Notes under the pieces: model-generated
Databases searched by the model: none
Told to the model about the DNA's origin: nothing
The model's input: the letters and a program-made list of their open reading frames with translations, nothing else
Part shown: piece by piece, positions 2,496-19,042 of the stretch
How positions within the stretch are numbered: position 1 is the first letter of the stretch
Layout: each line of letters opens with the position of its first letter
From: a virus
Reading direction: 5' to 3' (one strand)
IMG/VR virus record: IMGVR_UViG_3300031612_000506
Span: 1-22,399 of that record
DNA length: 22,399 nucleotides
Program-made: the position numbers and the translations under genes

Positions 2496-5400
2496 ATGAT
2501 CGATAGAACAGACCCAACAAATAGGGATACTGTACCTGCGATGCTTACCCCCGGAGAATTTGTTCTTAATAAGGAAGCATCCAATATGTTTGCCCCTACT
2601 ATAGAGCAAATGAATAATGCGGGATTACAGCAACGTGCAATGAAAAACATGGGTGGTGGTATTCCCCCTCAATATTTAAACTTAGGTGGTGAAACCAGTG
2701 GTCGAGGTAGGATATCTACTGAACAGTCTGAAGCTACACCTTGGATACAGAATCTTGAAAATCGTGAAGGCTTTCGAGACTACGTGTATATAGATAGCGA
2801 AGGACATGCCACTATAGGTACTGGTCACAAACTCCCAGCTAGTTTTAAAAAATATGCATGGGATGGTAAAAGCGAAAGTACAAAGCATAAGCCATACAGT
2901 AAAGCTGAGTTAGATCAGATGCTCCTAGATGATTTAAGTACTGCTAGATCTGCTGCAGAAAAGAACTTTTCTAACTGGAATGAATTACCAGAGCCTGTTC
3001 AAAATGGGTTGACTAACATGGCATTTCAACTTGGTGGGAAAGGTCAATCTAAATTTGAAAAGATGAGAGAAGCTGTTGAAGCAGGTGACTACTCTAGGGC
3101 TGCTTTTGAGGCCAATGATAGTAAGTGGGCTGAACAAACTAATGTTCGTTCTGAAGACTTGGTTAATGTTTTCTTAGCTCAAAATCCAGTTCAATCTAAT
3201 TTCGATGTCCCAAGGCCCGGACAAGGGTTTGGTGTTGAAGCATTTGGCACAGGTAACTCTTTAAATAATCCACGCCCTTCAAGTGATCAATCTGCTGAGT
3301 TGGTAATTCCAACACAAGATCCTAGCATCAGAGGGGTGGTCCCTGAAGTAATTCAAACTAGCTTTTTACCCAATTCACCCCCTGAACAGTCAGAACCAAA
3401 CCAATATAGGTCTGTACCAACAGAACCAAACCAGTATAAGTCTGTACCAACTATCGAATCAGTTCCACCCCAACCAGAACAATCTTTTGGGCAAGCATTT
3501 GCTTCAGGTAGAGCTGCTCATGGTGGTGGTGGCGGCGTGTTTAGTTACAAAGGTCAAGAATATAGTACAAACATAGCGGAAGAAGAAGAACAAAACCGTA
3601 TGATGGCAAGTCAACCAACAATGACTGCTAACATGGGTGGGGATGTTCAGCATCTTAACCTAGGGGATTACGTTAAAAGTCTATTTGGTGGTGGACAACC
3701 TGATGATGAAGAACTTTTGTCTCAGTCGTCTCAAAGCATTGATCAAATGGCCCGTAAGAAACTCCAAGATGATGTTGACAATTCAATATTTTCAAGGAAT
3801 GAAAGGGATGCATTGACTAAATTTGATCAAGGCATGCTAAATGTAAATAGAAATGCAGTTCCTCCACCTAGACAAATGGGTCTATCTCCCGGAGAAATGG
3901 CTAATCAAACGACACTTGAATCCACTGTGCCTCCAACTGTAGCTGTACCCCCAAATGGATCGGCTCTTAATACATCTTTAAGAAAATTCTTTGAGCCTGT
4001 TGGTAATGTTATGGATAACAACCCTTTAAAGGATGCAATTGCAGCAGGTAATGGAGATCTTGAAGCACAGAAAAGGTTAGAGGCTGCTAACCAAGTTGTC
4101 CCGCAAGTTAACTCTCCTCCTGCACCTCCTCCAGCAAACTATAGCTTGTTAGATGCAAATCAATTATCTTTCCTTGCGGGTCAAGGTGATGATGATGCAA
4201 TTGCACAAGAGTTAATAAATGAAAGAAAACGCCTTAGCGAACAAGACGAGATGTCTTCTTTACCACCAGATCCGATTGACTTAACTACTCCTATACTTGC
4301 CAAAGTAGATGTGTTAGAGAAAAATACTTTCTCTGCTGCAAACACTGTTGAGAATACGGAGAGAGAACTGAATAGGGTAACACAAATTGCTAGTACTCTT
4401 GGGCCAAATTTTGGTTTTATTGATGATGATATTGCATCTATTGAACGACAACTGGTGAAAGATAGAGAAGCTTTAGATGCTGCAAGGCAAGCGGAACAGA
4501 TTGCAACATCCGAAGCAGATCAGACTTTAAGATCACAAAATCTTGTACGTCCAGAAGTCATTGCAGTAAAAGGTCTACCAGCAACTAATCTTGAACCTAA
4601 TAGGGATACATTAACTAAGACTGGGGCTAGTCGAAAGACTCCCGCTCAGATAGTGGCAGATTTAGAATTAGATAATACTGAAGCTAAAAATCTTGATGTT
4701 GATGAGACCCCTGATCCAGATCCTATTGAAGATACTGGTAAGGGTATTGCAAACTCTGATCCTAAAGCTTTTTCAAATGCTAAAAGTATTCTTAAGGATA
4801 TATTTGGAGATCTTTTTGACCCTAAAGAGTTAACAAGGGCTGCTATTATGTATTTAGGTGGTCGTGCTACTGGTATGAATGGTAATCAAGCCCTCGCATT
4901 CTCAGGTAAACAATATATTGCTCGTACAGATGCTAAGGCAAACAACTTTCAAACAGTTGCAATGAAAGCTGTACATACTAAAAAAAGTCTGTCTATCTAT
5001 AAGAAGACTATGGACCCTACAGATCTTATCCTTAAGTCTGTTGCACCTATATCAACTGGTGATTTTCAACAGTATTATAATCGTATAACAGGAGCTCCTA
5101 TTAATGCCCAGAAAAAGAAAGTGGGTAAGGAATACTTTTGGTTTGATGGTAATGAGCAAATGAATATGCAGGAGGTAACTAAAGATGCAAGGATGGCTAA
5201 AGGAACTAAGGAAAACAGGGAGTATAGTACCTCTGTTAGGAAAGGCTTTAGTGATTTAGTAGGTGAGTTAGATTCTTTAAATTCCTCTGAAGGTGAGGGG
5301 AACAAGAAGGGAACTCCAATATTAAAGATAGCTGCTAAGAATACTGCAGATGCAGCATATGTGTTTATGCAAAAGAATGGTGTCGGAGAAGAAGCAATGT

Positions 5401-5807
5401 CTGATATTATTGAACAGGTTTATAAAGAAGCCCTTGTAGATCAGAAAGCAGGTCAAAATATAGGATCACTTGAGTCTTACTTTAGAAGAGCTTGGGTTGA
5501 AACTCAGACACAAGATGCGGTTAACTTCCAACTACCATCTGGTGAACCAGTTGCTGTGGATAAAATTAAGAATTTCTTAGGTACTATACGTAATGTGGCT
5601 AAGAAAAGGGGTAATGATGAATTAGGTGCTCGAAATGATACTCAACTTTCTGCATTTTTAATGGAAACCCCTGCTTATAAGTTCTATAACTCTCCTGCTT
5701 TATCTGAAGAAGACAGAAAAAGATATATCAAGGATGGTAACAATGCTGGTATCAGTGGACTTATGCAATATATGATTACTGAACTGTCTAAAGACACCTC
5801 GTCCTAG
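2496..5807 (+). CDS. Ejection protein with GH24 (T4-type) lysozyme domain
   Basis: This 1103-aa internal virion protein fills the gp15 position. Residues 11-27 carry the phage structural motif DTVPAMLTPGEFVLNKE. Residues about 82-230 form a complete T4-type muramidase: E91 in NREGFRDY, D100 in YIDSEG and T106 in HATIGTGH match T4 E11/D20/T26 with identical 9- and 6-residue spacing, followed by the usual helical lobe (EPVQNGLTNMAFQLGG). It should cut the glycan strands of peptidoglycan while the DNA is being ejected. Residues about 270-330 are a Pro/Gln-rich linker with a small tandem repeat. The remaining 750 residues are mostly helical and polar, with coiled-coil-like stretches (about 620-680), and have no recognised fold. 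AGGAG precedes the ATG. In T7 itself the virion muramidase is an SLT-type domain at the start of gp16, so both fold and host protein differ here. Confidence 0.85.
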   Translation: MIDRTDPTNRDTVPAMLTPGEFVLNKEASNMFAPTIEQMNNAGLQQRAMKNMGGGIPPQYLNLGGETSGRGRISTEQSEATPWIQNLENREGFRDYVYIDSEGHATIGTGHKLPASFKKYAWDGKSESTKHKPYSKAELDQMLLDDLSTARSAAEKNFSNWNELPEPVQNGLTNMAFQLGGKGQSKFEKMREAVEAGDYSRAAFEANDSKWAEQTNVRSEDLVNVFLAQNPVQSNFDVPRPGQGFGVEAFGTGNSLNNPRPSSDQSAELVIPTQDPSIRGVVPEVIQTSFLPNSPPEQSEPNQYRSVPTEPNQYKSVPTIESVPPQPEQSFGQAFASGRAAHGGGGGVFSYKGQEYSTNIAEEEEQNRMMASQPTMTANMGGDVQHLNLGDYVKSLFGGGQPDDEELLSQSSQSIDQMARKKLQDDVDNSIFSRNERDALTKFDQGMLNVNRNAVPPPRQMGLSPGEMANQTTLESTVPPTVAVPPNGSALNTSLRKFFEPVGNVMDNNPLKDAIAAGNGDLEAQKRLEAANQVVPQVNSPPAPPPANYSLLDANQLSFLAGQGDDDAIAQELINERKRLSEQDEMSSLPPDPIDLTTPILAKVDVLEKNTFSAANTVENTERELNRVTQIASTLGPNFGFIDDDIASIERQLVKDREALDAARQAEQIATSEADQTLRSQNLVRPEVIAVKGLPATNLEPNRDTLTKTGASRKTPAQIVADLELDNTEAKNLDVDETPDPDPIEDTGKGIANSDPKAFSNAKSILKDIFGDLFDPKELTRAAIMYLGGRATGMNGNQALAFSGKQYIARTDAKANNFQTVAMKAVHTKKSLSIYKKTMDPTDLILKSVAPISTGDFQQYYNRITGAPINAQKKKVGKEYFWFDGNEQMNMQEVTKDARMAKGTKENREYSTSVRKGFSDLVGELDSLNSSEGEGNKKGTPILKIAAKNTADAAYVFMQKNGVGEEAMSDIIEQVYKEALVDQKAGQNIGSLESYFRRAWVETQTQDAVNFQLPSGEPVAVDKIKNFLGTIRNVAKKRGNDELGARNDTQLSAFLMETPAYKFYNSPALSEEDRKRYIKDGNNAGISGLMQYMITELSKDTSS
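3391..3450 (+). repeat. Tandem 30-bp duplication (two copies)
   Basis: Two adjacent 30-base units, 3391-3420 and 3421-3450, differ at two positions only. Both stay in frame and encode two copies of a decapeptide (EPNQYRSVPT / EPNQYKSVPT) in the Pro/Gln-rich linker that follows the lysozyme domain of the 1103-aa protein. It looks like a recent slippage duplication in a length-tolerant linker. Confidence 0.85.
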
Positions 5808-5836
5808 TAGAAAACATAAAAACAAGGAGATATGTA

Positions 5837-8800
5837 ATGGGAATACTTGATGATATTGATGCTTATAAACCTAATACTTTAATTGGCACCAATACACATT
5901 TCATTGATGGTGACACACTGGAGAATCCAGATGGTCCTAATTATCGACTTCGTGGATATGATGCTGCCGAGGTTTCTAAAATTTTAAAAACTGGTGAAGT
6001 AAAGGAAGGTACTGCTGGTGGTTCTAATACCACTGGCATTATCTCCAACCTTGCAAATGAACAGGGGTTTACTAATATAAGACCTGTGTTTAACCCTGAT
6101 GGGTCACCTATGATGGACACTCGTGGTGGTCGTCAAATGGTAGATCTTATTAACGACAAGGGAGAAAATTTCTCAAGTATGTTAATGAGTTCTGGTGCTA
6201 TGGATACTACAGAGTTTTCTACAGACTCTGATAGGATCAGGAAGGTTCAAGCTCAAGGTGATAGGGAAAGGGCTATATACCAAGGTACTTATAAGCCATC
6301 GGCATTTGATAAGGCCGCTGCACAGATTGAGAATGCAGAGCTTGAAGCTGGTGCTAAATCATTAGGGTTTAAAAGAACACTTGCTAATGAGAAGGAACGT
6401 GCATCATACATTAGTTACTTTATGGAATCACAGGGCATGTCAAGGAGACAAGCTGAGAGTGAGATGAACAAGTATTTCAATAGGGATGTAGATGTTTTCA
6501 ATCAAGGTGTTAGTTTAAATAATAAATCACTAAACCCAATGTCAGATTCTTGGGAACAGGGTTGGATCAGTGTTGGTGAAAGTGCCTTTGGTGTTGCCAA
6601 CATGCTAGGTTCCGCTACTGGTAGCGAGGGTTTAGAGTCTTGGGGTCAAGATGGTGTTGATAGGCAGAACAGTAAGATGCAACAGTATGGTTACACTATA
6701 AATAGCTATACTGATGTTGACAGTATTGGATCTGCCTTCGAATATTTAGGTAACAACATGGCTCTGTCACTGCCTTACATGGCAGCTACAGCAGCCGCAA
6801 CTGTTGCAGCACCTGTTACCTTTGGAGCTTCCTACACACTACCAGTGGGGCTCTACGCAGGTCAGACTTGGAATGACATGGAGGGGGACAACGATAATAA
6901 GTCTGCCACAATAGCCATTGGATCTGGTATAGCTCAAGCTGTACTAGATAGATTAGGTCTTAGGGGATTAGGTGGACTGGGTAAGAACCCAACAACTGTT
7001 CTCCAAGAAGCTGCAAACTCTCTGGCTAAATCTAGAGGTATAGCATTACCTGAAGCTAAGTCTATTGTTAAAGGCGAAGCAGACATAGCTATTGCTGCAT
7101 TTGCACAAGAAGCTCAGACCATAGCTAAGAAACAGTTAACTGCTAAGAGCTCAGCTAAACGTGTGTTAGGGACTGTTGGTGTAGGTTCTGTTAGTGAAGG
7201 ACTAACTGAGGTTGGTCAGGAAGCTATTGGATATCTTTCTGCTGTTGCAGGATCTGATAAAGTCTTTGACATGGAAGAGTTTGAAGAGCGTCTTGGTAAT
7301 GCAGCTATTGCTGGTGCCTCATTGGGTGCTACATTCAGTGTTCCGGGAACTGTAAAAGATCAAATAACATGGATGGATGCAGCTGTAAAGTATGGTGAAC
7401 CTGCTACCCCAAGGGAAGTAGAGAAGTATCGGGACATAGAGATAGAAAAGTATGGCACAGTTCGTACAATAACACAGGGTCTTGATCAGACTAAGGCAGA
7501 GATACCTAAGAAAGGTATCGTAGGCCCCTCAATATCTGAAAGGAGTGTGAAACATAAAGCTTTAGAATCAACTAAATCTTTTAGAGAACGGGCAAGTAAC
7601 GAGGTTATGAATATATCTCAACTTTGGAGAGCATCTGTTACCAACGCTATACCTAAAAGTATATTGAATAGGTCTGCATCTGCACGACTACTAGCATCTT
7701 CATTAGGTGGTACATTGACACCTCTTCATGGGGGGTCTGGTTTAGAGGCTGCACAACATCATTTGGTAACCTCATATAGAAATCAATTGGTTGATCCTAA
7801 AAAATTCTATGAAGAGATGGGACTTAAAAGTCTAGTGGGGTTACACAGTTCTAAGAAGAAGGCCGCTATAAGTGACAGGGTATATAGTGTATTACGTAAA
7901 GCTACTGACCCTAAGTCAGGGCAATTTGATGCTAACCTTATCCCAGAAGATACTGTAAATAGGGCTCAGATTGCAATGTTAGGTAATCAACTAATAGCTC
8001 TTGGAAAGGTTTTAAGATATGATCAAATGAATGCTGGTGCAAAGATGGGAGACATAACTAATTACTTACATAGGTTTAAATCTATAAGTAAAGCAGCTGT
8101 TCTTGCTAACCCAGACAAATTTAAATCATTGTTGGTGTCTAAGTTTGGAATCACACCAACTGAAGCTTTAGAAATAACCGATAAGGTTATAGATAATCCA
8201 GAGATTAACAGTCTTGGTGAAGCTATGCAGTCTAATATTGGATCTCTAAACCCATCATCTCAGAAGAAAAGAACAATGAACTTGTCAGAAACTGAGGGGT
8301 TTGAAGACTTCTATGAGAGTGATATATTTGCCAATGTAACTAACGCATCTAAATCTGCCGCAAGGTACACAACTCAAATGCAGTATGTTGGAAAGGATGG
8401 TGAGATAATTTCTCAACTACTTAACAATATGAAAGCTGAAGGTCTATCAGAGGAAGAGGTTAACAAAGTGGCTAGGGATGTTCAAGATATCCTTGAAGCC
8501 GTATCGGGTAACTACAGTAGACCTAAAACTCAAGCTGGTAAAAAGGCTATGCGGTTCCAAAAGAGTGCTATGTTTTGGATGACACTCTCTGCACTACCTC
8601 TTGCTACGTTTTCATCATTGCCTGAGTTAGCTATGACACAAGGTGCTCTCACTAAGGATCAGATATTTGGAAACAATGGTAGTATTAAGACAGCTGTTCG
8701 TGAATTTACTTCTGCATTTATCCCAAAACTTAAGAAAGTTGAGGAGTCAATTGATGATAGTCTCTTTGATAATGAAGGTCGTAGGGATGGCAGGGCTATC

Positions 8801-9814
8801 TTACGGGATACTGGTTTCTTTGCACAAGACGTTGGTGCTGCAACTGTAGCTGGTGTAAGTGAAGTTAACGACAACAGAAGGACAGCTATGGAAGCTTTCT
8901 TTAAAGTCACTGGCTTAACTGCATGGACAGACTACATGAGAGCTATACGTGGAGCTATGGCTTTTGATTTCATATCTATAAACACTAAGTTAATGAATGT
9001 TAGGGATGAGTTTGGGGATAAGGTTTACATAAGAGAAACCCAAGATGCTGAACAAAAGCTTAGGTCTTTAGGTATCCCAGTGGAACAGTTTGTGGATATA
9101 CATACTCGAATTGAAAGAGATGGGTATAGTACTATATCACCTGCTGAAAAGAAACTATGGGACACTTCAATTAAAGAAGCTACATTTAACTTCATCAATC
9201 AAGCAGTGGCACTTCCCGGAGCAGCTAATCGTCCTTTGATCTATCAAGATCCAAGGTTCGCTTTGTTCACACAGTTCCAAGGCTTTATATCTACATTTAC
9301 TGCAAATCAATTACCACGCATGTGGAATGATTACATAGCTCGTGGCACTCCTACTATGCGTTATAACACATTTGTTATGATGAGTACTATGATAGCCCTT
9401 GGGTTTTTCTCACAGTCTATGAAAGATCTAATTAAATTTGATGATGATGAAGATAATGAAGGAACATTTGGTAATCCCTATTTGGATAAGCCAGAGTACA
9501 TTCGCCGTGGTGTCATGGCTTCTGGTCTGTTTGGTACAGGCGAGAGGGTTATTGATATGTTTGCACCTATCTATGGACAAAGATCCAAGGGTGTCGGAGA
9601 TTGGATATACAACCAAGCTACTGGTGAGAGCCCTACTTTAGGGTATGTTGGTAGGATTGGTGATGCTGGTATGAATTTAGTTAAGGGTGATGTTGAACGC
9701 GCTGTATATCAGGGCCTCAAGTCTGCGCCTTTAATTGGGCCACTAACCGATGACAATAAAAGGGCAGCTAGTTTTATAACTGGCGGTGGCTGGAATTATA
9801 AGGAGAAAGATTAA
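5837..9814 (+). CDS. Giant ejection protein with N-terminal SNase-type nuclease domain
   Basis: This 1325-aa protein fills the gp16 position. Residues about 20-155 match the staphylococcal nuclease fold end to end. HFIDGDT supplies D26 (SNase D21), YRLRGYDAAE supplies R37, D42 and E45 (R35, D40, E43), and DTRGGRQMVDLIND supplies R99 (R87), followed by SMLMSSGAMD and the closing helix DRIRKVQAQGDRE. All catalytic and calcium-binding positions are therefore present. Possible membrane-active segments lie at about 308-345 (Ala-rich), 913-937 and 1176-1195, and QFQGFISTFTANQLPR near 1144 is typical of giant phage internal proteins. Its last codons contain the AAGGAG of the next gene and the stop overlaps the next ATG by one base. 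In T7, gp16 spans the inner membrane and pulls DNA into the cell; that role is inferred here, and the nuclease activity is predicted from residues only. Confidence 0.85.
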   Translation: MGILDDIDAYKPNTLIGTNTHFIDGDTLENPDGPNYRLRGYDAAEVSKILKTGEVKEGTAGGSNTTGIISNLANEQGFTNIRPVFNPDGSPMMDTRGGRQMVDLINDKGENFSSMLMSSGAMDTTEFSTDSDRIRKVQAQGDRERAIYQGTYKPSAFDKAAAQIENAELEAGAKSLGFKRTLANEKERASYISYFMESQGMSRRQAESEMNKYFNRDVDVFNQGVSLNNKSLNPMSDSWEQGWISVGESAFGVANMLGSATGSEGLESWGQDGVDRQNSKMQQYGYTINSYTDVDSIGSAFEYLGNNMALSLPYMAATAAATVAAPVTFGASYTLPVGLYAGQTWNDMEGDNDNKSATIAIGSGIAQAVLDRLGLRGLGGLGKNPTTVLQEAANSLAKSRGIALPEAKSIVKGEADIAIAAFAQEAQTIAKKQLTAKSSAKRVLGTVGVGSVSEGLTEVGQEAIGYLSAVAGSDKVFDMEEFEERLGNAAIAGASLGATFSVPGTVKDQITWMDAAVKYGEPATPREVEKYRDIEIEKYGTVRTITQGLDQTKAEIPKKGIVGPSISERSVKHKALESTKSFRERASNEVMNISQLWRASVTNAIPKSILNRSASARLLASSLGGTLTPLHGGSGLEAAQHHLVTSYRNQLVDPKKFYEEMGLKSLVGLHSSKKKAAISDRVYSVLRKATDPKSGQFDANLIPEDTVNRAQIAMLGNQLIALGKVLRYDQMNAGAKMGDITNYLHRFKSISKAAVLANPDKFKSLLVSKFGITPTEALEITDKVIDNPEINSLGEAMQSNIGSLNPSSQKKRTMNLSETEGFEDFYESDIFANVTNASKSAARYTTQMQYVGKDGEIISQLLNNMKAEGLSEEEVNKVARDVQDILEAVSGNYSRPKTQAGKKAMRFQKSAMFWMTLSALPLATFSSLPELAMTQGALTKDQIFGNNGSIKTAVREFTSAFIPKLKKVEESIDDSLFDNEGRRDGRAILRDTGFFAQDVGAATVAGVSEVNDNRRTAMEAFFKVTGLTAWTDYMRAIRGAMAFDFISINTKLMNVRDEFGDKVYIRETQDAEQKLRSLGIPVEQFVDIHTRIERDGYSTISPAEKKLWDTSIKEATFNFINQAVALPGAANRPLIYQDPRFALFTQFQGFISTFTANQLPRMWNDYIARGTPTMRYNTFVMMSTMIALGFFSQSMKDLIKFDDDEDNEGTFGNPYLDKPEYIRRGVMASGLFGTGERVIDMFAPIYGQRSKGVGDWIYNQATGESPTLGYVGRIGDAGMNLVKGDVERAVYQGLKSAPLIGPLTDDNKRAASFITGGGWNYKEKD

Positions 9815-12800
9815 TGGCGATACCAATAATACGTGGGGCTAAAGCCGATCTCATTAAACCATCTGAGACATTGATATCAGAAGGTATACAAGGGGAGCTT
9901 CAGTCTACTGCGGCTACACCACAACCTCAGGCTAATATGTCTATACTACAATCAATATCTGAAGCTACACCTGAGAGCCTTGCCCCTGTTGTGGGCGAGG
10001 CTTCAACACAACCTGTGGAGATGGCAGCACTGGACCCAGTACAAGGGGTAGAATTGTCAGAACCTGTGTTTGCAGATTTAAATGCCTTTGAAGACAATCG
10101 TTTTGATGTTGTTGATATGAAGACTCGTAATATTAACGAAGGTAATCCTGATACATCTGTAGGTTTTAAAAGACTTGATGGATCTAAGATACCCCCTCGT
10201 ATATATAATCTTAATCCAAACAACTCTGAAGTTTATTCTGATGCTGGCATAAGAAGCAGATCAGGTACTATGGTTGCTCATGTTAATGCAGGTAGGCTTG
10301 GTATAAACCTATCTGGATTAGGGACACCAGCTTATCAGGGTAAGTCAAACCCAGATGCATTAACTGGACCAGCCTTGTCTGAAGAGATTCAGAAATACAA
10401 AGAGGGGGATATACTAGCAGCTATTAGTAGGTCAGATGCTGTCATTGAGAATGAACAAGGTTTTAAATTACCATCTCCACTGTACACTGGTATAGCTTCT
10501 GCTGTAACTGAGAACGTGATGATGAATGCTTTTGGTGGTCAAACTGCAGACACAGATGCATTACAAGAAGCTATGGGGGAGTCTTCTTTAGTTCCTAATC
10601 TTAAGGATAAAGTTAATCCAACTGTTACTCACGCTTCTGGTAATAAAATGTTGGGGCAGCAGATACACCTAGAGTACTCCCGTATGCAGAAAAAGGTACT
10701 TGAAAGTCAAGGAGTTCCTACTAGTGATCCTCGTATGGTAACATTATCTTCTCCAACTCAGATCCCTACAAGGGAAGCTGAGACTTTAGGTGCTGCATTT
10801 AAACACTTGTGGGCTGAAACTAACCCACACATGGTTACTCGTGGTGTTGACACTGTTACAAAACAGATAACATATGCCCTTACACCTGAAGGTGAAGCAG
10901 TGCTTGACTTAGGTTCTTTAGAAAGGAAAAAGCTTTTCCCAAGACAAATAGTTCGTCCAGCTAAAACATACTCTAAGATACAAGGCACTGATGTTCAAAA
11001 GAATGTAGCTCGTGCCACATCTGGTGCCAAGAAAGGCCAGAAGATGGGTAAGGTTCTTGAGGAGGCTATGCAAAATCTAGGTTCTGTTGCACATGTGGTT
11101 GATAAAACTCGTCTAAAAATCATACTATCAACTACCCTTCCATCATTAACTTCAGGTGAGTTTGAATCGTTTGGTGCTGAGATAAATGGTATTGGTCAAA
11201 CTAAAATGGATAGGTTTAATGCAAGCGAAACTCAACAGAAGAAAAAGTTTAAAGCTAATCCAGAACTTAGGAACACTGAAGATGAGTATGTACCTTCTGA
11301 AAACATGGCTATGTTACAGGATAAATTAGCTAATGAGATAAGATCAATGTCTCAGGAATTGGATAGTGCTAACTTTTTAACTTGGAACATACAAGGGTTT
11401 CAAGGAAGATTGACCCCACAGCAGTCTTATTTTAACCTAACTACATCCAAGACTGTTAGGTTTGCAACCAGAAATGCTGTACCTGCTACTATAAAACCTG
11501 GGAATAGGCAAGAGAAAAACATAAGACAAATGTATGCAATGATACTTATTCCAAAGACTGTTATTAAAAATGTAACAGGTGAGGAAACTGTAGTAAATGA
11601 AGCTGGAGATTCTTATCTACCTGCACAAAGGGATTACCTTTTGCGTCAGAAAGAAGGCGAGCTTTACTCTTATGGTAAAAGATTAGAAGCAGCTTTACAA
11701 ATGTCGGATGCAGAGTTTGAGTCTATAACTACAGCAATAAAAAATGGTGTTGCATTAGACAATCCAAGTTTCCCGAAGGTAACTGGACTTAACCTTGATC
11801 CTAATAATGAACTAGATGCTAAACTTATAGGTCTTATAAGAGACAACAAAGATGATGGTCCTCTTTTCATAGATACAGCTATTGATTTCTCTAAGTATGT
11901 AGATTTTAAAAACCAATACAAATCAACTAAAGATAAGTCACTTACATTTAACTCTTATGTTAATGCTTATATAGATGGTAAGACTAATGGTCCTGCCAGT
12001 AATGCTATGCAATTAGGTAATTCTGACACAGCTTTTATGACAGGAGTACTCAGACGTAGCAGGGTATCTAACCTAGATGAAGGTGATATGCGCGATAAGT
12101 TGATGGATTTAGCATCTGATAGCATAGACAATGGTTGGGAAGGTTTAACTTCAGAGAATTATACACCCATGAACAATGTAGCTAGGCAGGTGTTTGCTAA
12201 TCGTGACTTGGCTAAGCTTGTTATTATGACCTATGGTTATGGTAAAGAGATTGAAAGTTTTAATGCAAACATCGATGAGGTCATTGAGCTTATTAACGAA
12301 AGGAAAATTCGTGAAGAGGCTGAAGGAATGGGAGTCAACACCTTTGCTCATGATATCGCTCTACTTGAAGCAACTGTTTCTCGAAATGAGTTAGCTAACA
12401 TGTTAACTGGAAGGTATGCTCAGTCTGTAGAAGGCGTTCTTGGAGATGAGACAATTGAAGCTCGGTCTATTATGAGATCAGCTGCCGCTTTACATGCAGC
12501 TATGAATGAACCTTTTATAATTAAAGGTCCAACAGGTATGGACATACACATAGGTGGTGAGTCATCTACTGGGTATTTAAATGCTGATCTTAGTACTTAT
12601 AGACTAAGCCCAATGGACTCTGATGTTTTCCAAACAACAACTGTTGCATCTTATAACACAGAACCTACAGCCGCAGCAGCTAGGACAAGAGGGGATCAAT
12701 CTATTCCCGGAGAACATGCCTATGGTGGGTCAGTTGTAGCACCTATTCAAGCTATAGATGCTGCGACAGTTGCCATGACTGCTTCTGGTTCGTCTTGGGA

Positions 12801-13425
12801 TAAGTTAACAAGGGCATCAAAAGGTAGCCCTTACTTGCACACTATTTACGATGCATTTAAAATGGATGCTAATGGGTATGATGTTGTACTGGAAGAGGTT
12901 AATAACAACTGGATGAAGGCCACAATGGACTGGAGCTATCTTGAGCAAGCCAAGGCATCATTAGCTGAAGCCACTGAAAGGTACAATGAAAAGATGAAGG
13001 GTCGTAAACCTACAGATAAGATCACAGATAATGAAAGTGCTTACATGGGTTGGTTATTAACAGTAGTTGTTAACCCTAATACTGGTAAAAGATCTATGGT
13101 AAACATGAGAAACAGACTAGGTAAGTTCACAGATCTACGTAACGATGATAAGTACAAGACTGCTACTCGTGAGATTGAGTCTCGGTTTTCAAAGTCGATG
13201 GCAAGTGTTGGCTTTGATGTTAACAATCCACCATCTGAGTTTACTGTTGCCCAACTAAAACAATTTAAAGGCACATTAAGTACTGTACTAAATTCAGATA
13301 GTCGTTTAAATAAAATGATTAGTGAAACCAATAACAATAAGAAGAAGTTAAAGGACATGATCATGAAGACAGGTTACAAGTTGGAGAATGGTAAACGTAT
13401 TGTTCTTCAGTACTTCGGACATTAA
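9814..13425 (+). CDS. Putative virion-packaged single-subunit RNA polymerase (N4 vRNAP-like)
   Basis: This 1203-aa protein shows the signature motifs of the T7/N4 single-subunit RNA polymerase family in the right order. QGFQGRLTPQQSYFN has R532 (T7 DWRGR, R425). YIDGKTNGPASNAMQLG is motif A with catalytic D721 (T7 D537). RDLAKLVIMTYGYGKE is motif B with R797, K801, Y809 and G810, the same spacing as T7 R627, K631, Y639 and G640. APIQAIDAATVAM followed by LHTIYDAF is motif C with D1013 (T7 D812). The first 500 residues have no clear relative. The whole length is close to the N4 minimal virion polymerase (about 1100 aa). It is the last gene of the ejection block, overlaps the 1325-aa gene by one base and is followed directly by a terminator. 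It is not the phage's conventional RNA polymerase, which lies on the other strand. Packaging and injection are inferred from location and the N4 precedent. Confidence 0.8.
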   Translation: MAIPIIRGAKADLIKPSETLISEGIQGELQSTAATPQPQANMSILQSISEATPESLAPVVGEASTQPVEMAALDPVQGVELSEPVFADLNAFEDNRFDVVDMKTRNINEGNPDTSVGFKRLDGSKIPPRIYNLNPNNSEVYSDAGIRSRSGTMVAHVNAGRLGINLSGLGTPAYQGKSNPDALTGPALSEEIQKYKEGDILAAISRSDAVIENEQGFKLPSPLYTGIASAVTENVMMNAFGGQTADTDALQEAMGESSLVPNLKDKVNPTVTHASGNKMLGQQIHLEYSRMQKKVLESQGVPTSDPRMVTLSSPTQIPTREAETLGAAFKHLWAETNPHMVTRGVDTVTKQITYALTPEGEAVLDLGSLERKKLFPRQIVRPAKTYSKIQGTDVQKNVARATSGAKKGQKMGKVLEEAMQNLGSVAHVVDKTRLKIILSTTLPSLTSGEFESFGAEINGIGQTKMDRFNASETQQKKKFKANPELRNTEDEYVPSENMAMLQDKLANEIRSMSQELDSANFLTWNIQGFQGRLTPQQSYFNLTTSKTVRFATRNAVPATIKPGNRQEKNIRQMYAMILIPKTVIKNVTGEETVVNEAGDSYLPAQRDYLLRQKEGELYSYGKRLEAALQMSDAEFESITTAIKNGVALDNPSFPKVTGLNLDPNNELDAKLIGLIRDNKDDGPLFIDTAIDFSKYVDFKNQYKSTKDKSLTFNSYVNAYIDGKTNGPASNAMQLGNSDTAFMTGVLRRSRVSNLDEGDMRDKLMDLASDSIDNGWEGLTSENYTPMNNVARQVFANRDLAKLVIMTYGYGKEIESFNANIDEVIELINERKIREEAEGMGVNTFAHDIALLEATVSRNELANMLTGRYAQSVEGVLGDETIEARSIMRSAAALHAAMNEPFIIKGPTGMDIHIGGESSTGYLNADLSTYRLSPMDSDVFQTTTVASYNTEPTAAAARTRGDQSIPGEHAYGGSVVAPIQAIDAATVAMTASGSSWDKLTRASKGSPYLHTIYDAFKMDANGYDVVLEEVNNNWMKATMDWSYLEQAKASLAEATERYNEKMKGRKPTDKITDNESAYMGWLLTVVVNPNTGKRSMVNMRNRLGKFTDLRNDDKYKTATREIESRFSKSMASVGFDVNNPPSEFTVAQLKQFKGTLSTVLNSDSRLNKMISETNNNKKKLKDMIMKTGYKLENGKRIVLQYFGH

Positions 13426-13480: not shown

Positions 13481-13757
13481 AAAGCATTCCTCGTTTAGCA
13501 AGTAACTCTCGGTACTCTTTTAATTGATCTTGCTTACGTTGTCTAGCTTTCTTATCATCAATGACACCACTGGCAAGATCTTCAGCGATACCAAGGTCTA
13601 TTACACGAGGCATTAGATCCTTTGTGAAAGCCAACTCTTCAGCCAGATTATCATGGGTCAGTGGGTTATTGTTCCAATCGGTAATGAACTCATCGTCATC
13701 TACCTGCACACCTCTGAGTGCTAAATGATTGTATGATTTACGCGAAGAAGTAGTCAC
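13479..13757 (-). CDS. Small hypothetical protein, last gene of the leftward operon
   Basis: This protein of about 92 aa is of unknown function, soluble, highly charged and helical, with an acidic middle (DDDEFITDW) and a Lys/Arg/Glu-rich C-terminal helix (KKARQRKQDQLKEY). I chose the GTG at 13755-13757 because AAGGAG lies 10 bases before it. The frame also has a TTG at 13764-13766, but that would leave a single base after the same GGAG. Either way it overlaps the end of the RNA polymerase gene by 20-29 bases, so it is translated as a rider on the polymerase message. Its stop lies in the terminator's T-run. It could be a small regulator of transcription or of host functions, but nothing in the sequence shows it. 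Confidence 0.6.
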   Translation of the reverse strand: MTTSSRKSYNHLALRGVQVDDDEFITDWNNNPLTHDNLAEELAFTKDLMPRVIDLGIAEDLASGVIDDKKARQRKQDQLKEYRELLAKRGML

Positions 13758-16032
13758 TATTTTCAATCTCCTTTATATCTAGGGTGCCAAGTGTGGGCTG
13801 TTCCACATCGTCTTCGGCATCTGTTATGAAGTTACGTATGACTTCAAAGTAATTATCATAGTCATACATACGTATGAATACTTGTTTAGTTAAGTCTAGT
13901 AGTTTATCAACATCACTAGCGTGTGTGCTAAAACTATCATGTACAGCCGCAAAGCAACCATCCCATTCAGATATCACAAGGGCCATGTGACTGGCATCCA
14001 TAGAGTGTATGTAATTAGGTGACATACCACACACAAACCCTCTACGATCAGGCATACGTGTTGGTACTAAGGCTACGTGCGTAACCTGTCCAGTCTTATT
14101 ACCATACCCTTTGATCCTACCTCTGGCTTTCCTGTCTTGCATTATCCATTTCTCATAGATAACATCAAACCCTGAAGGGGTACTCCACTCAATCCTATCA
14201 TCACCTTTGCCATGTTTAAGATCTGTAGTGTACTCTTTTAACTTGATAACTACATCATTCAGTTCTTCTAGATCCTCATCGGTCTTGAAGTTCTTCTTCA
14301 TTAGTTCATCACGTTTCTTAGAGAACTCTCTGTACTCAGCATTAGCTTCGTAACCATCAGAGTCTACCTTAACATGTGTACCTAGTTGATACATAGCTAA
14401 GTTCTGTAGATAACTCATGGTAGATAGAGGTCCGGGACATACCTTATCGATTGCTTTGATAAGGAGTTTAGATAGTTTAGTACAGTCATCCTGTGTTATT
14501 CCATACTCTGTGTGGTAGTCCTCTGATTTACAATCAAAGAACATGTTCTCAGCTATCTTCTTAGCACCAGCAGAGTATGCCCTAGTCATTGACCCTCGCT
14601 TAGAGATACCCTTTCGGATATGCTTCATGGGCATTAAGGCTATAATAGAATTCAACCTGTCATCTTTACACAGGTTAATCATTTCTTTGGCAGTCTGCAC
14701 ATAGAAATCTTTCTGTATATCTACAGGGATCAACCCCACTAAGTCACCAGTCTGTTCATCTTTAGAGATGGCCCCTAAGTGTTGCCATCCATTATTACTA
14801 CCATCAATTGGGATAGGTAACGATGTCATGTGTATCCTGTTGTCTTTGAATGCACAGTCAAAATCATACCACTCCACACAAGCAGCTAAGAAAGATACCT
14901 TCTTTTCAGCTGAGTCAGAGAACTCTTGGTGCTTACCCGCATCTATGATCTCAGACATGTATTCATTAGTCCAAGATATACGATCCTCAAGTGTCATCTT
15001 GTCAACTGATATGTTATCCAAGCCTTCACTTTTTAGGTACTCTCTATAGTCTTCATTGCACCAATCTGGTATCTCATCAATGTTGTAAGACATATTAAAC
15101 ACAGACGCAGTGTGTATAGCTAACCACTGTAACCCACTTTCTGTCATGGGCTTAGCATGTTGAAACTTAAACAGTCCCCTTGCTAGATCAGATCCTTGAA
15201 AGTTCATAAAGCTTTCACAGTAGTAGAACCTACCTCTGTAGTCTACATCTAGGTACTGATAGAACTCATCTAACTCAGACAGCTTACGTGCCTTTTCAGA
15301 TATGAATGCCCACTCTACCATCTTGCTTCTACGTTTAAGCTCTTTGGCATCGTTGTCCTCTACTGGATCTTGAGATACAAATAGATCTTTATTATTAACC
15401 ATAGCCTCATACACAGGTGTGTTGATTACCCATGCTGTTTGCTGTAGTTTGTTTAAAGCTTGTATCCAAGGAGCATAAGGATTTAAGGGATCATTCTCTA
15501 GCCTTCCCTTTATTATTGGTCGATTAACTCCATTGATCTGTTGGAACATTTTAGTTATGTCCACAGGTCTTTCAGTGGTTGTTGCAGCAAGTGGGAAGCT
15601 TACTCCCTTAGCTGGTATAACACCTAGCTCAAACCACCTAGGGGCAGCTGACACAACGTGACAACTGTTCCTTGTTTTAGCATAGGATAACTCAATGAAG
15701 TTAAGATTATACAGTGCCTCTATAAACAGGTCACCTATAGACACTTGAGAGCCCCAAGGTAGGGGCTCCCGATCTAACTCTCTTCCAATACTCTGACCTA
15801 TCTTCGTTGAAGCGTTGGTCAATGTAGTAGTACCTGATGGGCTGGAGCTAGTATCTTTTGTAAATTGCATTTGCAGAATTGCAATAGCTTTAAGAACGTA
15901 ATCTTCCATACGTTCACTGTAGTCTATCGATAACCTTAGCAAGAGACCCGCTACGTGGGGTCTTCGTCTTGCAGGACTTACCCCATCTACTCTCTTTACG
16001 AGGTAGTTAACTATCTCTTCAACTGCTGACAT
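13738..16032 (-). CDS. T7-like single-subunit DNA-directed RNA polymerase
   Basis: This 764-aa phage RNA polymerase is shorter than T7's 883 aa, mostly at the N-terminus. The motifs are clear: DYRGRFYY with R268 (T7 DWRGR), motif A PIDGSNNGWQHL with D410, motif B SKRGSMTRAYS with K478 and Y486, and motif C with NYIHSMDASH and AVHDSF (D699). The C-terminus SDYFFA matches the T7 ending FAFA that contributes to the active site. Two positions in motif B deviate: K474 stands where T7 has R627, and S487 follows the key tyrosine where T7 has Gly640. It would transcribe phage genes from its own promoters, probably the late virion operon. It is nearly the last gene of the leftward operon, unlike T7 where it is the first phage gene expressed. 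GGAG lies 6 bases before the ATG. Confidence 0.95.
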   Translation of the reverse strand: MSAVEEIVNYLVKRVDGVSPARRRPHVAGLLLRLSIDYSERMEDYVLKAIAILQMQFTKDTSSSPSGTTTLTNASTKIGQSIGRELDREPLPWGSQVSIGDLFIEALYNLNFIELSYAKTRNSCHVVSAAPRWFELGVIPAKGVSFPLAATTTERPVDITKMFQQINGVNRPIIKGRLENDPLNPYAPWIQALNKLQQTAWVINTPVYEAMVNNKDLFVSQDPVEDNDAKELKRRSKMVEWAFISEKARKLSELDEFYQYLDVDYRGRFYYCESFMNFQGSDLARGLFKFQHAKPMTESGLQWLAIHTASVFNMSYNIDEIPDWCNEDYREYLKSEGLDNISVDKMTLEDRISWTNEYMSEIIDAGKHQEFSDSAEKKVSFLAACVEWYDFDCAFKDNRIHMTSLPIPIDGSNNGWQHLGAISKDEQTGDLVGLIPVDIQKDFYVQTAKEMINLCKDDRLNSIIALMPMKHIRKGISKRGSMTRAYSAGAKKIAENMFFDCKSEDYHTEYGITQDDCTKLSKLLIKAIDKVCPGPLSTMSYLQNLAMYQLGTHVKVDSDGYEANAEYREFSKKRDELMKKNFKTDEDLEELNDVVIKLKEYTTDLKHGKGDDRIEWSTPSGFDVIYEKWIMQDRKARGRIKGYGNKTGQVTHVALVPTRMPDRRGFVCGMSPNYIHSMDASHMALVISEWDGCFAAVHDSFSTHASDVDKLLDLTKQVFIRMYDYDNYFEVIRNFITDAEDDVEQPTLGTLDIKEIENSDYFFA
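15749..15768 (-). other. GC-rich perfect hairpin inside the RNA polymerase gene
   Basis: GAGCCCC (15749-15755) and GGGGCTC (15762-15768) form a perfect 7-bp stem with a 6-base loop, unusually GC-rich for this sequence. It falls around residues 88-95 of the RNA polymerase coding region. There is no T-run after it, so it is not an intrinsic terminator. It may be chance or a structural signal. Confidence 0.3.
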
Positions 16033-17696: not shown

Positions 17697-18095
17697 TTAT
17701 AGTTTCGTTTCTTTCGAGTCTTGGAGTGCTTCGACTCCCACTTCGAGTTCTTCTGTTTGTGTAACTCGGACCCAGAGATACTCTCTTCCTCGTTTGACTC
17801 TATCTCGTTGTAAGATGATACCTTGGACAGTTTTGTCATTGAACTCCTCAAATATGTTTTGGTATGTATCTAGTAATGGTTTAATTATGTTGTCTAAGTC
17901 TGAGGCTTTATTAGATAACCCAGCATAGACAATGAAATGAACAGGGCTGTTACCATAGGGCCACTCTTCGCCCATTAGTATCGTTGCCATCTCTTCTTGA
18001 AACCTCTTATAGTCAGCTGTCTTGTAGGTTGTCCTTCCCTTTCTCACAAACATCTTGTTTGCTGATAATGGTTTGATCTGGAATAGCTGCTCCAT
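17697..18095 (-). CDS. RusA-like Holliday junction resolvase
   Basis: This 132-aa protein matches RusA in length and signature: an N-terminal KPLSANKMF segment equivalent to the PPSxN loop, then SDLDNIIKPLLD with D66 and D68 and NDKTV with D87. These correspond to E. coli RusA D70, D72 and D91, and the 19-residue gap between the last two is identical. It should be a dimeric endonuclease that resolves four-way junctions and branched replication products before packaging, the job done by gp3 endonuclease I in T7. The ATG at 18093-18095 is chosen because GGAG sits 7 bases upstream and the RusA fold begins there. The frame runs open to 18173 but those residues are not RusA-like. It overlaps the upstream HNH gene by 83 bases. 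Confidence 0.88.
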   Translation of the reverse strand: MEQLFQIKPLSANKMFVRKGRTTYKTADYKRFQEEMATILMGEEWPYGNSPVHFIVYAGLSNKASDLDNIIKPLLDTYQNIFEEFNDKTVQGIILQRDRVKRGREYLWVRVTQTEELEVGVEALQDSKETKL

Positions 18096-18366
18096 TTCTA
18101 CGCTCCGCTGTTCTAATGGCATGACAATTGTGACACACCACTTCTGTTTTAAACACCTCATCAAGCACTGCACCTATATCCCTGTCTTGTGAGATCATTC
18201 GAGAAACATTGTGTAGCTTCTCGAACTGAGGTAAATGATCAAATGCAAGTGCATCTGGGTGCTTGTTGTATCCACAATCAGTACACCCTATATCAGTTTT
18301 AAGAAGCCCTATGAACTTCCGCTTCTGCTTTCGACTTATGCTGGCTAATTTGTTCTTTAATGTCAT
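18013..18366 (-). CDS. HNH endonuclease, overlapping both neighbours
   Basis: This 117-aa HNH nuclease of the zinc-bound type has C28 and C31 (CTDC), D43-H44 (FDH) as the catalytic His, N53, then C78 and C81 with H82 (CHNCHAIR) closing the zinc site and the metal site. The N-terminal 25 residues are very basic (KNKLAS, RKQKRKF) and probably bind DNA. Such free-standing HNH genes in phages are often homing-type nicking enzymes, but some take part in packaging or host DNA breakdown. The ATG at 18364-18366 with GAAGAG upstream puts its first 22 codons inside the end of the exonuclease gene. Its last 27 codons overlap the start of the RusA-like gene in another frame. The tail after residue 90 has no HNH features and may exist only because of that overlap. 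Confidence 0.82.
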   Translation of the reverse strand: MTLKNKLASISRKQKRKFIGLLKTDIGCTDCGYNKHPDALAFDHLPQFEKLHNVSRMISQDRDIGAVLDEVFKTEVVCHNCHAIRTAERRNGAAIPDQTIISKQDVCEKGKDNLQDS

Positions 18367-19042
18367 CTAACTCTTCCCAAGATGTTATCATTGTTAATAG
18401 GCGCTTAGAGATGTCTGGATCTCCTGCCCTGTTTGTTCTCCATGCTGCACGTACTCGGTTCCACCTACGTTCCATAGGTACACCATGCAGTATTCTTTCT
18501 GCCTTCTTAGGGCCAACTCCTTTAATTCCCGGAATGTTATCCGATCTATCACCAGTTAGACACTGAAGCATAAGCTTAAGGTTAGCAGTGTCATCGTTGA
18601 TCTCTTGTATTTCTTTCTTCACAAAGTTATAGTGAGTCCCAGGAATTTGTAGTAGATCTTTATCAATACCTGCAACTGTGTACTCTTGACCTACCTCTCT
18701 GCACTCGGATGCCCATATACTAACAAGGTCATCCGCTTCCATATCATCTGCTTCAATGGCTTCGTACTTATCAACCATGTATTTATGGCCGTAGTTCAAT
18801 GCTTCTTTTACATCTGCATCTAGATCCTTTCTTGTTGACTTGTAGTTGGGGTAAATATCCTTTCGGAAATTACCCCTTCCTTTGATTGCCACTAGGAAAC
18901 TATCAGACCCACAGTTCTGTTGGATCTCTCTCATAGTGTGATCGATACCTACTCGTATATCCTTTTGCTTCTTTGTGACACAAGCCATGCGAAAGTATAT
19001 TGAGTCTGAATCTACTAGTATTACTGCGTTATCAGTGAACAT
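18299..19042 (-). CDS. T7 gp6-like 5'-3' exonuclease (FEN family)
   Basis: This 247-aa flap/5'-3' exonuclease carries the acidic metal-binding residues of the PIN-like core: D11/D13 (VDSDS), the IYPNYKSTRKD arch segment with basic residues, E102/D104/D105 (MEADDLVS), D127/D129 (GIDKDLL) and D165/D168 (GDRSDN). A helix-3-turn-helix DNA-binding loop follows (IPGIKGVGPKKA, 170-181). It would remove RNA primers and degrade host DNA to supply nucleotides. It is somewhat shorter than T7 gp6 (about 300 aa). It overlaps the end of the DNA polymerase gene by 11 bases, suggesting coupled translation, and its C-terminal 22 codons are shared with the start of the HNH gene. The C-terminus is Lys/Glu-rich and may be disordered. 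Confidence 0.93.
   Translation of the reverse strand: MFTDNAVILVDSDSIYFRMACVTKKQKDIRVGIDHTMREIQQNCGSDSFLVAIKGRGNFRKDIYPNYKSTRKDLDADVKEALNYGHKYMVDKYEAIEADDMEADDLVSIWASECREVGQEYTVAGIDKDLLQIPGTHYNFVKKEIQEINDDTANLKLMLQCLTGDRSDNIPGIKGVGPKKAERILHGVPMERRWNRVRAAWRTNRAGDPDISKRLLTMITSWEELDDIKEQISQHKSKAEAEVHRAS

Follow-up and report, generated by a model that had tools for sequence, protein, structure and literature searches.

A staphylococcal-nuclease-type domain at the N-terminus of a giant, probably virion-located protein in a group of largely marine phages

INTRODUCTION

In short-tailed phages, the channel that crosses the host envelope is lined by ejection proteins, whose enzyme domains act on envelope material, as in T7 gp16. 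Known enzymes on such proteins are murein hydrolases and, in phage N4, an RNA polymerase. Internal virion protein D of T7 (gp16) has 1318 amino acids and an SLT lytic transglycosylase at its N-terminus.

Staphylococcal nuclease (SNase; PF00565) is known as a fold and as an enzyme, and it also occurs as a free endonuclease in phages. The enzyme needs about millimolar Ca2+, of which seawater contains ~10 mM and the cytosol far less. Its residues R35, E43 and R87 are required by the catalytic mechanism, not by the fold, and the degenerate SNase domains of Tudor-SN are said to serve as binding or sensing parts.

Here we describe an SNase-type domain that forms the N-terminus of a giant phage protein, in a group of phages that are largely marine and for the most part uncultured. 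One cultured phage, Roseobacter phage CRP-7 (MK613349), has a counterpart, gp34, which is annotated as a hypothetical protein. The C-terminal family of the giant protein is shared with the virion structural protein of Kochitakasuvirus (KPP25, phiR18 and CRPAP1904) and with the relatives in Vibrio phage 1.262.O, JB8 and BroderSalsa. A literature search, with most subscription papers outside its scope, found no published account of an SNase fused to an ejection or virion protein. The CRP-7 paper (PMC6918029) contains no word that begins with 'nuclease', and the term 'mass spectrometry' is absent from the CRPAP1904 paper (PMC13340246). What appears to be new is the fixed fusion of SNase to a probable ejection protein across a lineage.

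RESULTS

A giant gene next to murein hydrolase and probable virion RNA polymerase genes

We analysed a virus record of 22,399 bases (IMG/VR IMGVR_UViG_3300031612_000506), hereafter referred to as the window. The coordinates of the giant gene, P0001, and of the features discussed below are given in Table 1. Relatives were gathered from viral contigs, one cultured phage (Roseobacter phage CRP-7) and two metagenome-assembled genomes. From 122 aligned rows, we dropped two that were shorter than 120 residues (from L087 and L098) and reduced the remaining 120 at <90% identity to 54 representatives: the window and 53 others, 25–78% identical to it (median 31%).

Table 1. Positions in the window of P0001, its domains and active-site codons, and the flanking genes
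Feature	Coordinates	Strand	Basis
P0001 gene, 1325 aa; N-terminal SNase-type domain and large body with C-terminal phrog_6958 family	5837..9814	+	ORF call, profile match
AAGGAG ribosome-binding sequence, 7 bases 5′ of the P0001 ATG	5824..5829	+	read in sequence
SNase-type domain as modelled and aligned, P0001 residues 1–178	5837..6370	+	model and profile alignment
SNase match proper, P0001 residues 16–143	5882-6265	+	structure alignment
D24 codon (counterpart of SNase D19)	5906..5908	+	Asp in 54/54 relatives
D26 codon (counterpart of metal ligand SNase D21)	5912..5914	+	Asp in 54/54 relatives
R37 codon (counterpart of SNase R35)	5945..5947	+	Arg in 54/54 relatives
D42 codon (counterpart of metal ligand SNase D40)	5960..5962	+	Asp in 34/54 relatives
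E45 codon (counterpart of SNase E43)	5969..5971	+	Glu in 54/54 relatives
R99 codon (counterpart of SNase R87)	6131..6133	+	Arg in 54/54 relatives
First hydrophobic stretch of P0001, residues 309–327, modest (Kyte-Doolittle 1.35)	6761..6817	+	hydropathy scan
phrog_6958 'virion structural protein' match, P0001 residues 833–1205, E 3.4e-28	8333..9451	+	profile match
P0002, upstream gene, 1103 aa; phage lysozyme domain PF00959 at residues 89–217	2496..5807	+	Pfam
P0003, downstream gene, 1203 aa; probable virion single-subunit RNA polymerase	9814..13425	+	phrog_414 / phrog_2206 in relatives

P0001 lies between the murein hydrolase gene P0002 and the probable virion RNA polymerase gene P0003. In the relatives examined, the gene has the same location: a large gene that often encodes a murein hydrolase lies on one side and a gene for a probable virion RNA polymerase on the other. 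An upstream ORF was found for 51 of the 54 representatives; 11 of these ORFs are truncated at contig ends, and the scan covered the 40 complete ones. The murein hydrolase families matched by the 40 upstream proteins were PF00959 (8 proteins), PF18013 (7), PF01464 (7), PF05838 (2), PF07486 (1) and PF16754 (1), where one member may match more than one family and the remainder of the 40 had no such match. The Pfam family of the upstream murein hydrolase changes from one relative to another, and these families are unrelated.

On the downstream side, the P0003 family matched phrog_414 (T7-type RNA polymerase) in eight of 15 relatives and phrog_2206 ('virion RNA polymerase') in four of the 15, the latter with a best E of 4.2e-11. 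Its residues D721, Y809, G810 and D1013 are invariant; we take them to represent polymerase motifs A, B and C. A P0003-family profile searched against the PDB returned nothing relevant, and a search with P0003 against phages returned no match. In addition to the T7-type polymerase encoded at 13738–16032, the window appears to encode in P0003 another single-subunit RNA polymerase, one that is probably packaged in the virion. Farther downstream, on the minus strand of the window (17697–19042), are genes that match the RusA-like resolvase, HNH endonuclease and exonuclease families, so that the phage has other nucleases available.

Gene order, protein size, the neighbouring genes and the PHROG label, from which we infer a location in the virion, suggest that P0001 is probably an ejection (internal virion) protein. 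Alternatively, P0001 could be a nuclease fusion that is expressed early or at the lysis stage and lies by chance among structural genes, outside the virion altogether. The virion assignment is a PHROG label, and the hydrophobic segments of the protein are weak, both of which would suit such a protein. On the other hand, the match to phrog_6958 is a highly significant one and recurs in 15 of 17 relatives, and the relatives keep the position between the two kinds of genes described above. We therefore consider a protein excluded from the virion to be very improbable, and regard P0001 as a probable ejection protein in what follows.

The N-terminal domain of P0001 is of the SNase type

The original prediction had placed an SNase-type nuclease domain at the N-terminus of P0001, a proposal that single-sequence comparisons did not recover. 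P0001 alone gave no Pfam SNase match, remaining below the PF00565 gathering cut-off of 21 bits; a single-sequence PDB search with the window domain found no SNase, and tblastn of the same domain against phages found nothing. A domain profile of 12 sequences, which did not yet include CRP-7 or the most SNase-like relatives, also found no SNase in the PDB. When the profile contained 21 sequences, SNase chains occupied ranks 1–5 (best E 6e-5; first unrelated chain 0.25). With all 54 domains, SNase came first in the whole PDB (E 3e-6, profile positions 8–150 against SNase 8–141), and all the chains with E <0.04 were SNase or SNase fragments, the first unrelated one being at 0.048. The sensitivity of the profile thus depends on CRP-7 and the most SNase-like relatives, without which the 12-sequence version missed the family.

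As a direct comparison, we aligned the phage domain profile by hhalign with 33 cellular SNases, which comprise 30 of the best-scoring matches and three others, so that weaker members are under-represented. The alignment had a probability of 98.5, a score of 77.9 and a P of 2.2e-14. In a column-shuffle control, 197 of 200 shuffles scored ≤6.8, and the reversed profile scored 7.9; the remaining three shuffles printed scores near 125 with one aligned column and no alignment, and were counted as degenerate (two of the three were inspected). Among individual relatives, two exceeded the Pfam SNase cut-off (L125, 26.1 bits; L118, 21.5 bits) and three approached it from below (L129, 19.6; L119, 17.2; L041, 17.1), while only six of the 54 domains reached E 0.01 against PF00565. 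L046 gave no Pfam SNase match although its motif pattern is very SNase-like. As the Pfam cut-off is a detection threshold and not a feature of the fold, we claim PF00565 membership through the relatives; the SNase assignment rests on them and on the structural model, since P0001 by itself has neither a Pfam nor a PDB match to SNase.

The AlphaFold2 predictions agreed with the profiles. A first model, from 12 sequences, had a pLDDT of 75 and already gave SNase as its top match; a second, from 23 sequences, reached a pLDDT of 82 and a pTM of 0.75. In the Foldseek search with the second model, ranks 1–20 were all SNase (E 3.6e-4 to 1.7e-2, probability 0.96–1.00), and the probability fell to 0.28 at rank 21. 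The VIA search with this model returned SNase in 50 of 50 rows (Z 8.1–8.5, rmsd 3.8–4.2, 113–118 residues). Residues 16–143 of the model matched SNase residues 11–136. The TM-scores were moderate (0.40–0.45 by query length), and Z values slightly over 8 are not high by themselves; the evidence from the predicted fold appears strong in that SNase stands alone at the top of the matches. In the viral model library, the best match was A0A646QXC0, a protein of 1368 amino acids that has the same length as CRP-7 gp34 and is presumably that protein. The predicted fold is an SNase-type OB barrel, the fold that the original prediction had named beforehand as one of two points on which it could fail.

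These results, taken together, show that P0001 residues ~16–143 form an SNase-type domain, as had been proposed. The profile, fold, shuffle and residue-invariance (see below) results rule out a chance resemblance to SNase. The phage domain shares with the SNase family its predicted fold and the order of its elements. It differs from the cellular members in being fused at the N-terminus of a giant protein and, in the window's subgroup, in having an 'NPDGS' insert before the counterpart of R87, and the window member lies below Pfam detection.

The active-site residues are retained

The profile alignments to SNase paired D24, D26, R37, D42, E45 and R99 of P0001 with the residues that we take to be D19, D21, R35, D40, E43 and R87 of SNase, respectively. 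The five pairings claimed earlier, those from D26 through R99, were thus upheld, and D24 joins the set. The window domain has the counterparts of both metal ligands, D26 and D42.

Across the 54 representatives, only seven of the 178 columns never vary (D24, D26, R37, E45, G77, R99 and G109), and a separate MAFFT alignment of the 54 returned the same seven. Five of them are the counterparts of SNase D19, D21, R35, E43 and R87. The catalytic residues are thus kept among the homologs, as the original prediction demanded, with the exception of the D42 column, which contained D in 34, E in eight, N in five, S in five, Q in one and T in one. When the Asp/other state of this column was placed on a tree made from the C-terminal columns, it required 10 changes, eight of them being forced by well-supported branches. 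The cellular enzymes are equally variable here: all 33 have D19, D21, R35, E43 and R87, whereas the D40 position is N in 17 and D in 16. The phage domains therefore appear, as far as aligned residues can tell, to follow the same rules as cellular SNases.

The variability of D42 raised the idea of a catalytically dead domain, which we set aside; drift at this position is not taken as a sign of catalytic death because the 33 cellular SNases vary in the same way. Metal might be bound less tightly by the 20 of the 54 relatives that lack the D40 ligand. In a broader form of this alternative, the SNase fold would have been kept as a non-catalytic module that binds or senses nucleic acid or Ca2+, in the manner of Tudor-SN. 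The 20 relatives without Asp at the ligand position are in line with such a module, as is the acidity of the domain (see below), which does not favour strong DNA binding. The invariance of the R35, E43 and R87 counterparts in all the 54 domains argues against it, as does the equal variability of D40 in the cellular family, and we think it improbable that the domain is non-catalytic. Judged by its residues, the N-terminal domain of P0001 is probably an active nuclease.

The fusion is fixed in a lineage of phages

The C-terminal family comprised 135 ORFs in 134 records, many of which overlap and represent one contig more than once. Of the 135 ORFs, 121 contain the SNase domain in whole or in part. 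The 14 without it consisted of 10 that are cut at contig ends and four distant relatives, from KPP25, Vibrio phage 1.262.O, JB8 and BroderSalsa, in which no SNase domain was found. Searches of INPHARED with the L125 domain, the CRP-7 domain and the whole of gp34 revealed the domain within a giant protein only in CRP-7; the L125 domain otherwise matched a Microcystis phage endonuclease and one unannotated record. CRP-7 gp34 has the same domain order as P0001 and all six active-site residues, although it is only ~25% identical over the domain. The neighbours are also alike, with gp35 bearing a lysozyme-like Pfam match, gp33 belonging to the P0003 family and gp30 being a T7-type RNA polymerase.

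Retention of the domain in all the close-family relatives with a complete N-terminus is what a step needed in every infection would produce, and such a step might be the handling of the phage's own DNA in the particle or the channel, such as trimming the genome end or releasing it for ejection. As part of a virion protein, the domain would indeed lie next to the packaged DNA. However, SNase is sequence-nonspecific and hence a poor tool for a defined cut, the four distant relatives named above manage without the domain, and none of our results points to a role of this kind, to which we assign little probability. We prefer a nuclease that is delivered by the virion and acts on nucleic acid other than the phage genome, as set out in the Discussion.

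In one clade of six representatives (L043, L127, L119, L125, L129 and L118; support 100/98), an extra N-terminal region precedes the SNase domain, which starts near residue 173–212. The lysozyme match in front of SNase passed the cut-off in two members (L118 and L119), fell short of it in two more (L125 and L129) and was weak in L043; L127 was scanned against NCBIfam only. The giant proteins with the extra region (L043, L045, L118, L119, L125, L127 and L129) are each one polypeptide of about 1520–1610 amino acids. L045 is a close copy of L043; its upstream gene had no Pfam match.

Three further records deserve mention. In L098, a single in-frame TAA (L098:1866-1868) splits the SNase domain from the remainder of the giant protein, whereas related contigs are uninterrupted. 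L133 has a full relative in a contig binned with a Candidatus Pelagibacter metagenome-assembled genome, and L132 a partial relative in a Bacteroidetes one; both are weak hints of a host, as the binning may be wrong.

Comparison with T7 gp16, topology and charge

P0001 had been described in the original prediction as a gp16-like, membrane-spanning DNA-injection protein. It resembles T7 gp16 in its size (1325 versus 1318 residues), in being encoded behind other large genes of the internal-protein type and in having an enzyme domain at the N-terminus. It differs in the nature of this domain, which is SNase in place of the SLT lytic transglycosylase; by Pfam, an SLT domain is absent from P0001 and present in the upstream gene of some relatives. 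The C-terminus looked by eye like a likely homolog of gp16, and one alignment was collinear there. The hhalign comparison of two profiles (A2 and A7) with seven gp16 sequences was not significant, including the collinear alignment (probability 0.2; scores 21.8 and 23.1), and profile A2 searched against the PDB did not find gp16 although the PDB contains it. The label 'gp16-like' therefore stands for size and gene order only. Gene order, size, neighbours and the PHROG match make a DNA-injection role plausible; significant similarity to gp16 is not part of the case, and the strongest hydrophobic 19-mer of P0001 reaches a Kyte-Doolittle value of only 1.35, so that P0001 may, but need not, span a membrane.

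In all the 54 representatives, no 19-residue window reaches a Kyte-Doolittle value of 1.3 before the end of the SNase domain. The first hydrophobic segment follows the domain, mostly near residues 277–550. In the lysozyme–SNase clade, no hydrophobic segment separates the lysozyme-like region from SNase. The periplasmic side is the simplest location for the nuclease, given the analogy with ejection proteins and the lysozyme that immediately precedes it in the polypeptide of this clade.

The same topology is compatible with attack in the cytoplasm, where the nuclease would enter with the leading end of the genome and cut the host chromosome or RNA early, for host shut-off and nucleotide supply. 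This is the main rival reading, because the adjacent probable virion RNA polymerase must reach the cytoplasm to act; a domain with an intact active site that is N-terminal to any hydrophobic segment could equally be carried through. On the opposite side, the Ca2+ requirement of SNase is far above cytosolic levels, the phage genome would share the compartment with the nuclease, genes of the HNH endonuclease and exonuclease families are already present in the window, and the domain of the fusion clade follows lysozyme, a periplasm-acting enzyme. We consider cytoplasmic attack unlikely and retain envelope-side action as our preferred reading, since the Ca2+ that SNase needs is present in seawater and scarce in the cytosol.

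The core of the phage domain is acidic, with a median net charge of -4.6 per 100 residues (range -11.1 to +2.2), compared with -0.5 for the remainder of the same proteins and +3.1 for the 33 cellular SNases, most of which are basic. The domain was more acidic than the remainder of its own protein in 51 of the 54 cases. L020 and L039, which have basic domains, are exceptions to the acidic rule. Part of the contrast with cellular SNases may reflect habitat, because three cellular SNases from the L132 and L133 genomes had net charges of +0.8, -1.5 and +6.8 per 100 residues. Acidity might be common among marine phage proteins in general, but the remainders of the same proteins do not share it.

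DISCUSSION

Our best reading is that P0001 brings a Ca2+-dependent nuclease with the virion and that this nuclease acts on the envelope side during passage of the genome through the channel. We give this reading about an even chance of being right; we infer the activity, the presence in the virion, the compartment, the target and the self-protection. The giant protein would be delivered together with the murein hydrolase and the virion RNA polymerase from the neighbouring genes. At infection, its N-terminal domain would emerge on the envelope side, where Ca2+ at the seawater level is available, and would cut nucleic acid outside the delivery channel, be it the DNA of a competing phage in the same cell or DNA or RNA in the envelope. 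The phage's own genome would be spared first by its tight packing in the head and later by running through the inside of the channel, and the acidic surface of the domain may perhaps also help to spare it. The channel geometry is borrowed by analogy, as P0001 has no significant similarity to T7 gp16.

Host nucleic acid, periplasmic eDNA or RNA, and competing phage DNA had all been proposed as substrates at the outset. The topology and the lysozyme fusion lean towards the envelope side. Two points make degradation of the host chromosome a less attractive role: HNH-endonuclease-like and exonuclease genes are already present in the window, and the Ca2+ need of SNase exceeds what the cytosol offers. 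Competing phage DNA is the target that we favour, the results themselves being neutral on this point.

The finding raises the question of how a phage carries a nonspecific nuclease beside its own genome, and for what purpose. That the nuclease has been retained, whereas its murein hydrolase neighbour is exchanged between unrelated families, suggests that of the two the nuclease is harder to replace. The cultured phage CRP-7, which infects marine Roseobacter of the RCA lineage, makes tests of activity, location and superinfection possible. We tentatively propose, as a possibility that we hold to be well short of probable, that the domain serves superinfection exclusion: a pre-made envelope nuclease, switched on by the Ca2+ outside, would destroy the DNA of later phages that is not shielded by the same channel, while its acidic surface would spare the phage's own packed genome. 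If this is true, the lineage would bring a ready nuclease into every infection, an instant, virion-delivered weapon of superinfection exclusion.
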